Shown here: positions 27,300 through 39,803 of the stretch, in pieces | Layout: each line of letters begins with the position of its first letter | Position numbering within the stretch: position 1 is the first letter of the stretch | NCBI GenBank assembly: GCA_020431405.1 | Contig: JAGQIK010000245.1 | Span: forward strand, 1-40,728 | Direction of reading: 5' to 3' | DNA length: 40,728 nucleotides | Source: Myxococcales bacterium | Lineage (GTDB): Bacteria; Myxococcota_A; Polyangia; GCA-2747355 | Translations under genes and position numbers: made by a program | Notes under the pieces: model-generated | Database searches by the model: none | The model's input: only the letters and a program-made list of their open reading frames with translations | What the model was told of the DNA's origin: nothing

Positions 27300-27922
27300 T
27301 GGAAAACATCGTCGTTTTGGGTGATTCGATCACATGGCACCCCATCGTTGGCGGCCTGTGGTGCGCCGAGCGCGGCATGGCCGCGAGCGATGTCGCGCTC
27401 GACTGGTTCAACCTGATCGAGGCGGCCCACCCCGAGTACACCTGGTACTGCCCGACGCGCGATCAGGCCAGTTTTGACTTCGTTCAGATCGCGGCGCAGT
27501 TGCCGACGCTATACGCCGCTGTTGACGTGCGTTGCGTGATAGTACAGGCGGGCGAGCACGGATTGGCTGCAACGACGGGGCTGCGCAACGACGCTGAGAT
27601 CGCGTCGTGGTTGGAGGTCGTGGGCAACTTCTGCCGCGCCAAAGGGGCCCACCTCGCGGTGCTGTCGCGACTCATCGCGCCCGCGCCGCCATACGATCCA
27701 GACACCGGCGTCGGGCTCATCGATCGGTTGTTCCGTGAGGCCACAGCGTATCAGCGTGGCTCTTGGATCGATCTGAGTTACACGGTGAATATCGACGCAG
27801 GGAACAAGGGCGACGATCCGTGCAATGACCCTGAGCTCGGCGCAGTACAGGGACACCCCAACGACGCCGGGCATCAGGCGGTCGCCGACACCGTCAGTGC
27901 CTGGGTGAGCGCGGTGCTATGA
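27299..27922 (+). CDS. SGNH/GDSL hydrolase, putative tail esterase
   Basis: 207 residues. Block I is GDSITW with Ser at residue 10; block V is HPNDAGH with Asp189 and His192 (DxxH). The usual GxND block III is replaced by AGEHG (residues 84-88), so oxyanion support is altered. It would remove acetyl or other acyl groups from surface polysaccharide during adsorption. ATG overlaps the previous TGA and the stop overlaps the next ATG, placing it firmly in the fibre operon. No signal peptide is seen, fitting a virion component. Confidence 0.8.
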   Translation: MENIVVLGDSITWHPIVGGLWCAERGMAASDVALDWFNLIEAAHPEYTWYCPTRDQASFDFVQIAAQLPTLYAAVDVRCVIVQAGEHGLAATTGLRNDAEIASWLEVVGNFCRAKGAHLAVLSRLIAPAPPYDPDTGVGLIDRLFREATAYQRGSWIDLSYTVNIDAGNKGDDPCNDPELGAVQGHPNDAGHQAVADTVSAWVSAVL

Positions 27923-28668
27923 CTCGCGAAGCACTCGAGTTCGACGATCGCGCCAGCGTGATCATCCCGCGACGTCTCGTCGCTTCCGAGCCCGCGCCGG
28001 CCATGGTCCGCGTCAGCGCGCGTACCGGCCGCGGCCCAGACGGCGATTGGCGCATTTTCCAGGCAGGGCTGCGTGTTGACGGTGCGCTGGTTCTCGACGG
28101 CGGGAGCAAAGCCGAGCACGGCGTCGAATTGCGTGGCATCGGCGGCGCGCGCCAGGCCGGAGACTTCGGCCCGCTGAAGGTCTGGGGCTGCACGCAGTGG
28201 AGCGTCGCGGCTACCGACTGCATTGGCCTGCGCCTCGCGGGACTTTCGCTGTGGCACCGCGGCGTACTGCTGCGCGGCTGCAACGGAGCGAGCCTGCGCG
28301 GCGTCTACGGCTACGGATGCGATGGGCCCCTCGTGCGCGTCGAGCCCGGAGAGCGCGTCAGCGGGGCCGGCGTGAAGCTCTACGACGTCATCAGCGAGGG
28401 CGCCAAAGGCGGCGCGCTGAGCGTGCACGGCGCGAGCGTGGACGTATATGGCCTGTGGTCAGAAACGGTGAAGGGTGCTGGCGATCTGGTCGTCGAGGCG
28501 ACTGCTGGCGCTCGCGTGCACATCTGGGGCGGCCGAGTCGCCAGCACGCCGGGCAGCGTGGCGTTCATGGGGCGCGCGGGCTCGCGCATCGTGCTGCACA
28601 GCGTCGACGAGCGCTACCCGACTGAGGACGATTGCGACGCGGCGAGCAGCGTGGAGCGGGTTCCGTGA
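27919..28668 (+). CDS. Beta-helix-like fibre or appendage protein
   Basis: 249 residues. Glycine-rich, roughly 20-residue strand-turn repeats (GVELRGIGGARQAGDFGPLKVWGC, GIGLRLAGLS-like, GVLLRGCNGASLRGVYGYGC, GALSVHGASVDVYGLWSE) resemble a right-handed beta-helix or pectate-lyase-type fold, common in tail spikes. Catalytic residues cannot be read. It is coupled to the esterase. Confidence 0.55.
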   Translation: MTREALEFDDRASVIIPRRLVASEPAPAMVRVSARTGRGPDGDWRIFQAGLRVDGALVLDGGSKAEHGVELRGIGGARQAGDFGPLKVWGCTQWSVAATDCIGLRLAGLSLWHRGVLLRGCNGASLRGVYGYGCDGPLVRVEPGERVSGAGVKLYDVISEGAKGGALSVHGASVDVYGLWSETVKGAGDLVVEATAGARVHIWGGRVASTPGSVAFMGRAGSRIVLHSVDERYPTEDDCDAASSVERVP

Positions 28669-28865
28669 GTCACGAGGTCAAATCCGCCAGCGCCGCCGTC
28701 GAGGACGACGCGTGGGTTGACGGCGTCGCTGCCGATCTGGCCGACCAGCGTGAGCTGCTGGAGAACGTGCTCGACGTGGTGCGTGGCAACCGAGCCATGC
28801 TCGTCGAGCTCCGCGCCGAAGTGGACAAGTTGCGCAAGCGCCGCTGGTGGCGGTTCGGCCGGTGA
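28665..28865 (+). CDS. Small coiled-coil protein
   Basis: 66 residues from GTG 28665 (GTGA overlap). An acidic start is followed by a heptad helix (LADQRELLENVLDVVRGNRAMLVELRAEVDKLRKRRWW) ending in an aromatic/basic tail. It leads directly into the REC-domain gene by another GTGA overlap. No family is recognised; it might pair with the coiled coil of the next protein. Confidence 0.55.
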   Translation: MSHEVKSASAAVEDDAWVDGVAADLADQRELLENVLDVVRGNRAMLVELRAEVDKLRKRRWWRFGR

Positions 28866-29659
28866 CTCGGCGGTGCGTCCTGTTCGTCGACGACGAGACC
28901 ACGCTGCTGCGCGGCTGGCAGCGCGCGGTGCGCGACCTCTGCGTCGTGCGCACGGCGGCGACGTACGAGGACGCGTGGCGGATCCTGCAAGAGCACACCG
29001 TGCACGTGGCCGTCGTCGACGTGAAGCTAAATGGGCGCACAGGAGTGGATCTGCTCGAGCGCATGCGGTCGTCGCACCCGCGCACCGTGCGCGCGCTCAT
29101 CACGGCCGGCGAGATCGAGCCCGATCACGTCACGCGCGCGCGGCCGCGCTTCGCCGTCCACAAGCCAGACATCGGCATGCGAGACGCCGTGAGGAAACTC
29201 GTGCAAGAAGCGCTTGACGAGGTCGACCGCCTGACCGACGACCACCCCGCCGTACCGCCCGCCGCGCCGACGTGGGAGCAGCAGTCGACGCCGACCGTCA
29301 AGCTCGACGCGTCGGCACCTCTGACAGAGGAGCGCGCCAAGCAGATGCCTCTGACGGCTGGCCTGCTGATCGCGCTAGTATTGATGGTGGGCGGCGCCAT
29401 CGCGGCGTGGCTCGTGCTCGAGGGGCGGATCGACGCGAAGGACAGCAAGGCCGTCGCCGGGCACGAGAGCAAGTCGTTTCGAAGGGCGCACGAGGACGGC
29501 GCGCGCCGGCTTGACGACTTGCAGAAGTTCGTGAAAGAAGCCATCGACAAGCAGCGCAGCGAGACGCGCACCGCGATCGAGGCGCAGAACGCCGCCGTCG
29601 GTAAGCAACTCGACGAGTTCAAGCGCTGGTTACGGCTCGCGCTGAGGAGACGACGATGA
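28862..29659 (+). CDS. Response-regulator receiver (REC) domain fused to membrane and coiled-coil segment
   Basis: 265 residues. Residues 5-118 form a full CheY-like REC domain: acidic pair D10/D11, phospho-acceptor D53 in AVVDVKLNG, T81 in LITAG and K101 in HKP. A proline-rich linker leads to one membrane helix (about 164-186, PLTAGLLIALVLMVGGAIAAWLV). A roughly 75-residue charged coiled coil (DLQKFVKEAIDKQRSETRTAIEAQNAAVGKQLDEF) follows. There is no DNA-binding or enzymatic output domain. The TM-plus-coil half has the layout of an inner-membrane spanin. It sits between fibre and endolysin genes; GTG 28862 overlaps the previous TGA. Function is inferred, not known. Confidence 0.82.
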   Translation: MTRRCVLFVDDETTLLRGWQRAVRDLCVVRTAATYEDAWRILQEHTVHVAVVDVKLNGRTGVDLLERMRSSHPRTVRALITAGEIEPDHVTRARPRFAVHKPDIGMRDAVRKLVQEALDEVDRLTDDHPAVPPAAPTWEQQSTPTVKLDASAPLTEERAKQMPLTAGLLIALVLMVGGAIAAWLVLEGRIDAKDSKAVAGHESKSFRRAHEDGARRLDDLQKFVKEAIDKQRSETRTAIEAQNAAVGKQLDEFKRWLRLALRRRR

Positions 29660-30243
29660 CGACCTGGGGTAAATGGCTGTTTGCATTCGCCGCGCTGTGC
29701 CTGATTGGCACCGTGACGATCCTGCTGTTCGGCGACACGTCGCTGCACGACTGGGCCAAGTCGCTCGGCGGGCTCGCCGTTGGGACGATCCTCGGCGGCT
29801 CGTCGCGCACGCGCACCGACGAGGCGGCCAAGCCGCCCAGCGCGCCGCCGAGCGCCGGCACGGGTGGCGGGTCGCGCCCCGGCGGTGGAGGCGTCGAAGT
29901 GCTTGGCGAGGCCGTAATCCGCAAGCGTGTCGCGGTGAGTCCCGTCGCGATTCACCTGGCCACGGTCAACGATCCGTCCCGGCTGCGCACGTCGCTGAAG
30001 GTGCTGATGGTCGCCTTCGTGCTGGCGTCGAGCGGTATGGCGCTCGTGGTGCATTCGGCCGGCTGCAGCCCGCGCACGCGCGCCGAAATCGTCAGCGGCG
30101 CCCTGGCGGACCTGGCCCGCGCGGCGTGTCGGCCAGCGCTCGACCGCTGCAAGGCGGCCAACCTCAACCCGTGCGCCGAGCTCACGGCGTGCCAGGCGAA
30201 GCGGCGTCAGGCGTTCTCGCTGATGCGCGAGGTGGTCAAATGA
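29656..30243 (+). CDS. Membrane protein of the lysis region
   Basis: 195 residues with SD GAGGAG. It has an N-terminal membrane helix (WLFAFAALCLIGTVTILLF), a Gly/Pro/Ser-rich linker, and a second hydrophobic segment (about 115-135: LKVLMVAFVLASSGMALVV) ending in a lipobox-like HSAGC. A Cys-rich helical tail (CRPALDRCKAANLNPCAELTACQ) follows. It may be a holin-like protein, or a fusion or nested pair with a lipoprotein (internal ATG 30007 after AAGGTG). Position before the endolysin supports a lysis role; neither function is certain. Confidence 0.6.
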   Translation: MTTWGKWLFAFAALCLIGTVTILLFGDTSLHDWAKSLGGLAVGTILGGSSRTRTDEAAKPPSAPPSAGTGGGSRPGGGGVEVLGEAVIRKRVAVSPVAIHLATVNDPSRLRTSLKVLMVAFVLASSGMALVVHSAGCSPRTRAEIVSGALADLARAACRPALDRCKAANLNPCAELTACQAKRRQAFSLMREVVK

Positions 30244-30425
30244 TCGCGAAGGGACTGATCGCCGCGCTCGAGTTGGTCAGCGAGCTGTGGAAGATGGCCA
30301 AGCCCGAGGACATCACCGCCGAGGTCAAGGCCGCCGTGCGCAACGCGTTCGCCGTGGTCAACCTCGACGAGATCGAGGTCAACGAGCAGCGCGAGCTCGA
30401 CGCGGCCGTGCCGCCGAAGGGGTAG
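30240..30425 (+). CDS. Small hypothetical protein
   Basis: 61 residues; ATG overlaps the previous TGA. It has an amphipathic N-terminal helix (AKGLIAALELVSELWKMAKPEDITAEVKAAVRNAFAVV) and an acidic end. It is too polar for a clear membrane helix. It could be an endolysin accessory protein; not recognised. Confidence 0.5.
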   Translation: MIAKGLIAALELVSELWKMAKPEDITAEVKAAVRNAFAVVNLDEIEVNEQRELDAAVPPKG

Positions 30426-30728
30426 ATGATCACGCAAGTCACATTCCCGGGATGCAGCTACTGCGGTTGCCCGACCGGGGAGTGCCGTCGAGGCGGACCC
30501 AACGAGATCGCTATCACCCTGCCCAGCCGCCCAAGCGGATACGCTCCGATCTTCGAACGGCCACGCGGCCCCGTTGGTCACTGGCTGCGCAACTGCGGCC
30601 CGGTACTGGACGACATGCTGCCGCCGGCGCCACCGCAACGGCAGCGCCTTCCCGATCTTCACATCGTGCCAGCCGAGGCAATCGGGGCACGACATCAGCG
30701 CTTCACCTGCGGCGCGAGAGGTCGCTAG
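30426..30728 (+). CDS. Small cysteine-rich protein
   Basis: 100 residues starting directly after the previous TAG. Cysteines cluster at the N-terminus (CSYCGCPTGEC), a knuckle-like motif followed by a Pro/Arg-rich body. It is listed with moderate trust: its codon use is compatible, but composition is biased. Function unknown; it is within the lysis operon. Confidence 0.45.
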   Translation: MITQVTFPGCSYCGCPTGECRRGGPNEIAITLPSRPSGYAPIFERPRGPVGHWLRNCGPVLDDMLPPAPPQRQRLPDLHIVPAEAIGARHQRFTCGARGR

Positions 30729-39338: not shown

Positions 39339-39610
39339 TATCGGGCCTTCGCCGGCATGATCGCGCAGCCGTCAGCGTCGACTTCCCAGCCGAGCAGGTC
39401 GGCCACGGCCTTTGTTGACTCGCGGGTCGTCCGCGGAAATCGCCGTGCTAGCGCCTCGTCCTCGTGTGCCATCTCGCCGAGCTGTGCCGCGAGGTCTTCG
39501 CACATTGTGGCCAGCTGGCGCGTCGTGGCGCCGGACCGCCACAGGGCGTACAGCGCAGCCTCGAGCTTGGCGCGGATGTGGGCGGCCTGGTCGGGCTTAC
39601 TCGCCGGCAT
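39338..39610 (-). CDS. Helical protein with paralogous remnant at 5023-5174
   Basis: 90 residues from ATG 39610. All-helical: DQAAHIRAKLEAALYALWRSGATTRQLATMCEDLAAQLGEMAHEDEALARRF. The second half of that stretch is 21/31 identical to the broken reading at 5079-5171. This intact copy indicates that the gene is functional here. Function unknown; the helices could dimerise. Confidence 0.6.
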   Translation of the reverse strand: MPASKPDQAAHIRAKLEAALYALWRSGATTRQLATMCEDLAAQLGEMAHEDEALARRFPRTTRESTKAVADLLGWEVDADGCAIMPAKAR

Positions 39611-39803
39611 CGTCGCTCTCCTCGGCGCCCGGCGCCGGCTCGGGTTGGGCGGCCCGCTCTCGCAGGGCCTGGACGGTCAGCGACAGCGCGGTGATGCGCC
39701 GCCGCATGGATTCGCGCTCGGCAACTAGGCGCGCGTTCTCGGCGCGCAGCCGGCGCAGTTCGCGGTGCAGTGGGGCGTTGGAGTCGTTCACGATGACGAG
39801 CAT
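39597..39803 (-). CDS. Coiled-coil protein
   Basis: 68 residues from ATG 39803. After a short strand (VIVNDSN) a long coiled coil (HRELRRLRAENARLVAERESMRRRITALSLTVQALRERAA) is followed by an acidic tail. It overlaps the REC gene's end and the next gene's start, so is likely co-translated. It could dimerise with the neighbouring REC or helical proteins. Confidence 0.55.
   Translation of the reverse strand: MLVIVNDSNAPLHRELRRLRAENARLVAERESMRRRITALSLTVQALRERAAQPEPAPGAEESDDAGE

Follow-up and report, generated by a model that had tools for sequence, protein, structure and literature searches.

A phage late-operon membrane protein with a receiver domain, a candidate regulator of lysis

Why would a phage place a signalling domain of bacterial type on a membrane protein close to its endolysin gene? 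The question is raised by the window, the whole stretch of 40,728 bases analysed here, which is one whole contig from an 11.2-Mb draft genome and encodes a little-known contractile-tailed phage assembled with a large-genome bacterium (Table 1). A preliminary description of this DNA had reported a receiver (REC) domain followed by a proline linker, one membrane helix and a coiled coil, located in a lysis cassette, and had offered as one model a lysis-timing or superinfection protein whose state is set by a host histidine kinase. We refer to it as the REC-TM protein.

Table 1. Features of the phage contig discussed in the text
Feature	Coordinates	Strand	Remarks
Terminase, Mu-type portal, ClpP-like head protease, major head protein		+	
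Sheath, tape measure, baseplate, then fibre-like genes, REC-TM region, endolysin		+	
66-aa soluble helical protein, basic-aromatic tail	28665..28865	+	sequence; coupled upstream of REC-TM gene
REC-TM protein, 265 aa	28862..29659	+	PF00072, AF2 model, Foldseek, hydropathy; REC aa 3-126, proline-rich linker 127-162, TM helix 163-186, helix/coil ~204-265
195-aa membrane protein	29656..30243	+	N-terminal TM 8-26; Pro/Gly-rich linker; second hydrophobic segment 114-132
61-aa protein	30240..30425	+	ATG overlaps preceding stop; no family match
100-aa Cys-containing protein	30426..30728	+	between membrane genes and endolysin
Endolysin-like glucosaminidase-fold protein, 239 aa	30731..31450	+	PF01832, phrog_3513
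Methylase, helicase, ERF annealing protein, replication-type genes		-	leftward (divergent) operon
Stand-alone REC protein, 123 aa	39788..40159	-	leftward operon with ERF, helicase and methylase genes

The coordinates given earlier for the gene (28862-29659) and its key residues proved exact, and the REC-TM protein holds all five catalytic residues of a receiver, D10, D11, D53, T81 and K101. The claim of a complete CheY-like receiver was borne out by profile search, with Pfam PF00072 (Response_reg) covering residues 6-88 (E = 1e-12, 48.6 bits against a curated cut-off of 30.2). Aligned with ten other RECs from its own and related genomes, V9, D10, D11, D53, K101 and P102 were invariant and T81 was in place. 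The closest solved relative by sequence was the HupR receiver 2jk1 (1.5e-9). The AlphaFold2 (AF2) model, built with no alignment and of low confidence (mean pLDDT 55), showed strands and helices in the order typical of a REC, with one helix at 163-186 and a long one at 204-264; it lends support to the fold and the pattern of helices in the protein, not to the details. When this low-confidence model was submitted to Foldseek, the top matches were all receivers, again led by 2jk1 (E = 3.3e-8), so that a (beta-alpha)5 REC fold was recovered. With HupR-type receivers the protein has in common the sequence and fold over residues 5-123 and the full catalytic set. Unlike them, it carries a transmembrane (TM) helix and coil in place of a DNA-binding, ATPase or HD-GYP output. 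It also differs at position 57, with N where P57 is usual, and in the alpha-4/beta-5 region, where the T81-K101 stretch lacks about 2-3 of the usual residues.

Beyond the receiver, the proline-rich linker and the single membrane helix were found as described. The TM segment, with a KD19 of 2.73 at residues 168-186, is the most hydrophobic among the window's predicted genes. The C-terminal tail is mostly charged and helical with a basic end, RLALRRRR; its coiled coil, which the preliminary description had stated outright, is predicted from the low-confidence helix and a heptad-like hydrophobic spacing. The charges flanking the TM segment are balanced and do not settle the topology. With ~125 residues and no signal sequence, the receiver is expected to remain in the cytoplasm, so that the protein should be oriented N-in/C-out, with its tail in the periplasm.

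The gene is coupled on both sides. Its GTG start at 28862 overlaps the TGA (28863-28865) of the upstream gene, and its TGA stop (29657-29659) overlaps the ATG (29656) of the downstream gene; the REC-TM gene is therefore integral to the late operon, whose genes from 27919 to 30425 are linked by GTGA or ATGA overlaps. The upstream 66-aa gene likewise begins with a GTG that overlaps the preceding stop, and its product had no family match. Its end, LRKRRWWRFGR, resembles the basic amphipathic end of the REC-TM protein (KRWLRLALRRRR). For the downstream 195-aa protein, no family was found at a useful E in Pfam, PHROGs or NCBIfam. Its second hydrophobic segment ends in a lipobox-like HSAG followed by C (Cys codon at 30064), the single lipobox match within the predicted coding frames; with Ser at -3 the motif is not canonical, and a lipoprotein from this ORF is predicted to need an internal start. 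The ORF has four further Cys, and one frame possibly gives two products.

We then considered whether the region deserves its description as a lysis cassette. On sequence grounds the label rests on the endolysin-like gene, which lies ~1 kb downstream of the REC-TM gene and whose product matched PF01832 at 2.1e-6, slightly below the curated cut-off, and the PHROG endolysin phrog_3513 at 7.9e-5. No holin, spanin or lysis-regulator family was matched by the REC-TM or the 195-aa protein in Pfam, PHROGs or NCBIfam. The endolysin-like protein has neither a signal peptide nor a TM segment, and therefore a holin is expected. The closest homologue of this protein that was found (49%) is encoded on another contig of the same assembly (L072, 6676-7380; G000:C689), which supports, without proving, the organism of the assembly as the phage host. 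That homologue stands alone, flanked by metabolic genes and a gene for a protein kinase, on a chromosome-like contig without recognisable phage genes nearby.

When 51 predicted genes were scanned for Kyte-Doolittle hydropathy, only the REC-TM protein and its 195-aa neighbour showed strong membrane segments; the next scores were 1.64-1.76, among them those of the head protease and ERF genes. Because the predicted genes include no other strong membrane protein and a holin is expected, this pair should, by elimination, supply the holin and/or spanin; the 195-aa protein is a candidate for the holin, for the carrier of an o-spanin-like lipoprotein, or for both. With its neighbour as the sole other predicted protein that strongly spans the membrane, a lysis role for the REC-TM protein is likely. 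No overlap was found between the two contig ends, and the phage may therefore be incomplete; the statement that these are the only membrane genes is valid for the assembled part, as the contig may miss part of the phage.

Taking these results together, we give an about even chance to the REC-TM protein being a regulated lysis-membrane protein that acts with its 195-aa neighbour. It would be a late phage protein with a cytoplasmic receiver, a flexible linker, one inner-membrane helix and a periplasmic helical tail, and the two proteins would together make up the membrane part of the lysis machinery, the REC-TM protein as a regulated holin/antiholin or as an inner-membrane spanin-like partner. 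A host histidine kinase would phosphorylate D53, or the unphosphorylated receiver would bind a partner, and the state of the receiver would bias the assembly of the REC-TM protein and, in one direction or the other, the time of lysis. The idea that this timing is set by a host kinase is reasonable and unproven. We think it improbable that a host phosphorelay directly gates lysis, with the receiver fused to a membrane effector setting the time post-translationally and an early second receiver adjusting that signalling. The arrangement, together with the second receiver, suggests that the phage may listen to host signalling when deciding how to lyse. If true, the lysis decision would have a cytoplasmic input, a receiver carried by a lysis-region membrane protein and using host two-component signalling. 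To our knowledge, signal-responsive lysis timing is known in few systems, notably T4-type lysis inhibition, where the signal is read in the periplasm.

The architecture can be compared with known lysis proteins. The preliminary description had assigned the membrane and coil half the topology of an inner-membrane spanin. The TM helix and helical tail are consistent with this, but they equally fit class III holins, as N-in, one TM and C-out is common to both classes, and the lysis timing of the class III holin T of phage T4 is regulated by signals (PMC9636201, PMC11413866). The REC-TM protein has one TM, as T does, and is predicted to share its N-in orientation and periplasmic C-terminal part; in T, however, the cytoplasmic N-terminus is small and the periplasmic part is a folded domain, where the REC-TM protein has a REC head and a helical tail, and T gave no sequence match to the REC-TM protein. 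A proper inner-membrane spanin, whose C-terminal coil would pair with the internal-start lipoprotein of the 195-aa ORF (Cys at 30064) and fuse the membranes, with the REC as an added cytoplasmic module, seems to us rather doubtful. As in lambda Rz, the inner-membrane subunit of a two-component spanin, a TM segment is followed by a presumably periplasmic helix near an endolysin gene, and the next gene carries the sole lipobox in a coding frame and thus a possible lipoprotein. However, the REC-TM protein differs from Rz in its cytoplasmic REC head, and its partner is putative, its weak lipobox lying inside a longer ORF with an N-terminal TM of its own. Lambda-type i-spanins have a longer helix than the one predicted here, which has just ~60 residues and spans at most ~9 nm. 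Spanin genes commonly lie side by side, overlap or are nested one in the other (PMC9636201), but the profile searches returned no match to spanin families (Pfam, PHROGs, NCBIfam), and the literature searched held no spanin with a ~160-residue cytoplasmic head.

The contig holds another receiver, which bears on a different reading. An all-frame scan with the REC profile found the stand-alone REC gene in the leftward operon. Its product matched PF00072 at 5.9e-8 (33.3 bits against a cut-off of 30.2) and, by its sequence, has D10, D11, D59, T86 and K106; its model is poor, and the leading Foldseek matches were response regulators at E ~1e-3. Its GTG overlaps the stop of the gene before (GTGA). 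Directly downstream, overlapping the end of the gene, 39597-39803 on the minus strand encodes a 68-aa coiled-coil-like protein. Recent duplication as the origin of both receivers was ruled out, as there is no useful similarity between them. Two receivers in a phage of this size look unusual; none of 46 portal-related viral records, which are classed as linear and are possibly fragments, had any REC. A second REC in the same contig points to a tie to host two-component signalling more than to accident, and suggests that the phage has a broader stake in that signalling.

Accordingly, the main rival to the lysis reading is a phosphate-sink or host-signalling role, which we regard as unlikely though clearly possible. 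Both receivers would drain phosphate from host histidine kinases or act as decoys for them, and the membrane tether would keep the late receiver close to these kinases; the same role would cover superinfection control and the blocking of host stress or development responses. It is favoured by the pair of RECs in one phage, one of them standing alone without an output domain, by the richness of the host genome in REC genes and by precedents for phage proteins in host two-component signalling (PMC7289586, PMC8228385); yet it leaves unexplained the helical tail and the coupled position beside a membrane neighbour and the endolysin, and would make the 195-aa ORF the sole holin candidate. That the REC is a mere fold for dimerisation or docking, without phosphotransfer, we judge improbable: a purely structural domain would not need the five catalytic residues that are all kept, although N at P57, the shortened alpha-4/beta-5 region and the absence of a recognised cognate kinase or Hpt among the window genes scanned would suit it. 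These estimates overlap, in that the spanin and structural readings are partly special cases of the regulated lysis-membrane protein. An anti-defence role was set aside after a PADLOC search without a match.

The preliminary description had called RECs normally bacterial signalling modules, but they are not foreign to phages. Phage-encoded receivers are on record as PHROG 731 and 5982, CDS-30 of Alteromonas phage V22 is a CheY-like receiver protein (PMC7289586), and Alteromonas phage R8W carries PhoB (PMC8228385). Their likeness to the REC-TM protein is that of a REC domain in a phage genome: they are annotated as CheY-like, as DNA-binding regulators or as auxiliary genes, and none was found membrane-tethered beside an endolysin. 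In phages, receivers are known as soluble or regulatory proteins. A report on Yersinia entomophaga describes a PhoB-like regulator that controls a phage-derived lysis cassette (PMC10101115); the likeness is a response-regulator-type protein tied to such a cassette, whereas the regulator described there is separate from the cassette and here the REC is inside a cassette membrane protein. In the open-licence literature searched, we came across no report of a receiver forming part of a lysis-region membrane protein. The earlier remark that no phage spanin- or holin-like protein with a REC is known fits this result, and also that of the sequence collections searched.

Full-length relatives of the REC-TM protein were found neither in the viral contig collection nor in annotated phages (one REC-only match), plasmids or 59 related genomes (REC-only matches in both). 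Matches to its C-terminal half in 379 genomes were weak, and the five inspected had no REC and resembled chance TM or low-complexity matches. A broad REC consensus run against phage records gave many matches that resemble host chromosome fragments and was not used as a count. With the portal, baseplate, endolysin and terminase as anchors, no relatives of the phage were found in the genome contigs, and a clean profile found no REC downstream in distant Mu-like prophages of other genomes. By these searches the phage is nearly an orphan, and the REC-TM architecture is an orphan in the collections covered. Portal profiles did reach two relatives, L083 (44%) and L084 (39%), which have head and tail genes in common with the phage and both end before the lysis region. 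At 14307-15779 of L084, an IMG/VR relative, the tail sheath homologue aligns over its full length, with an open frame only from 14595, which suggests an in-frame stop.
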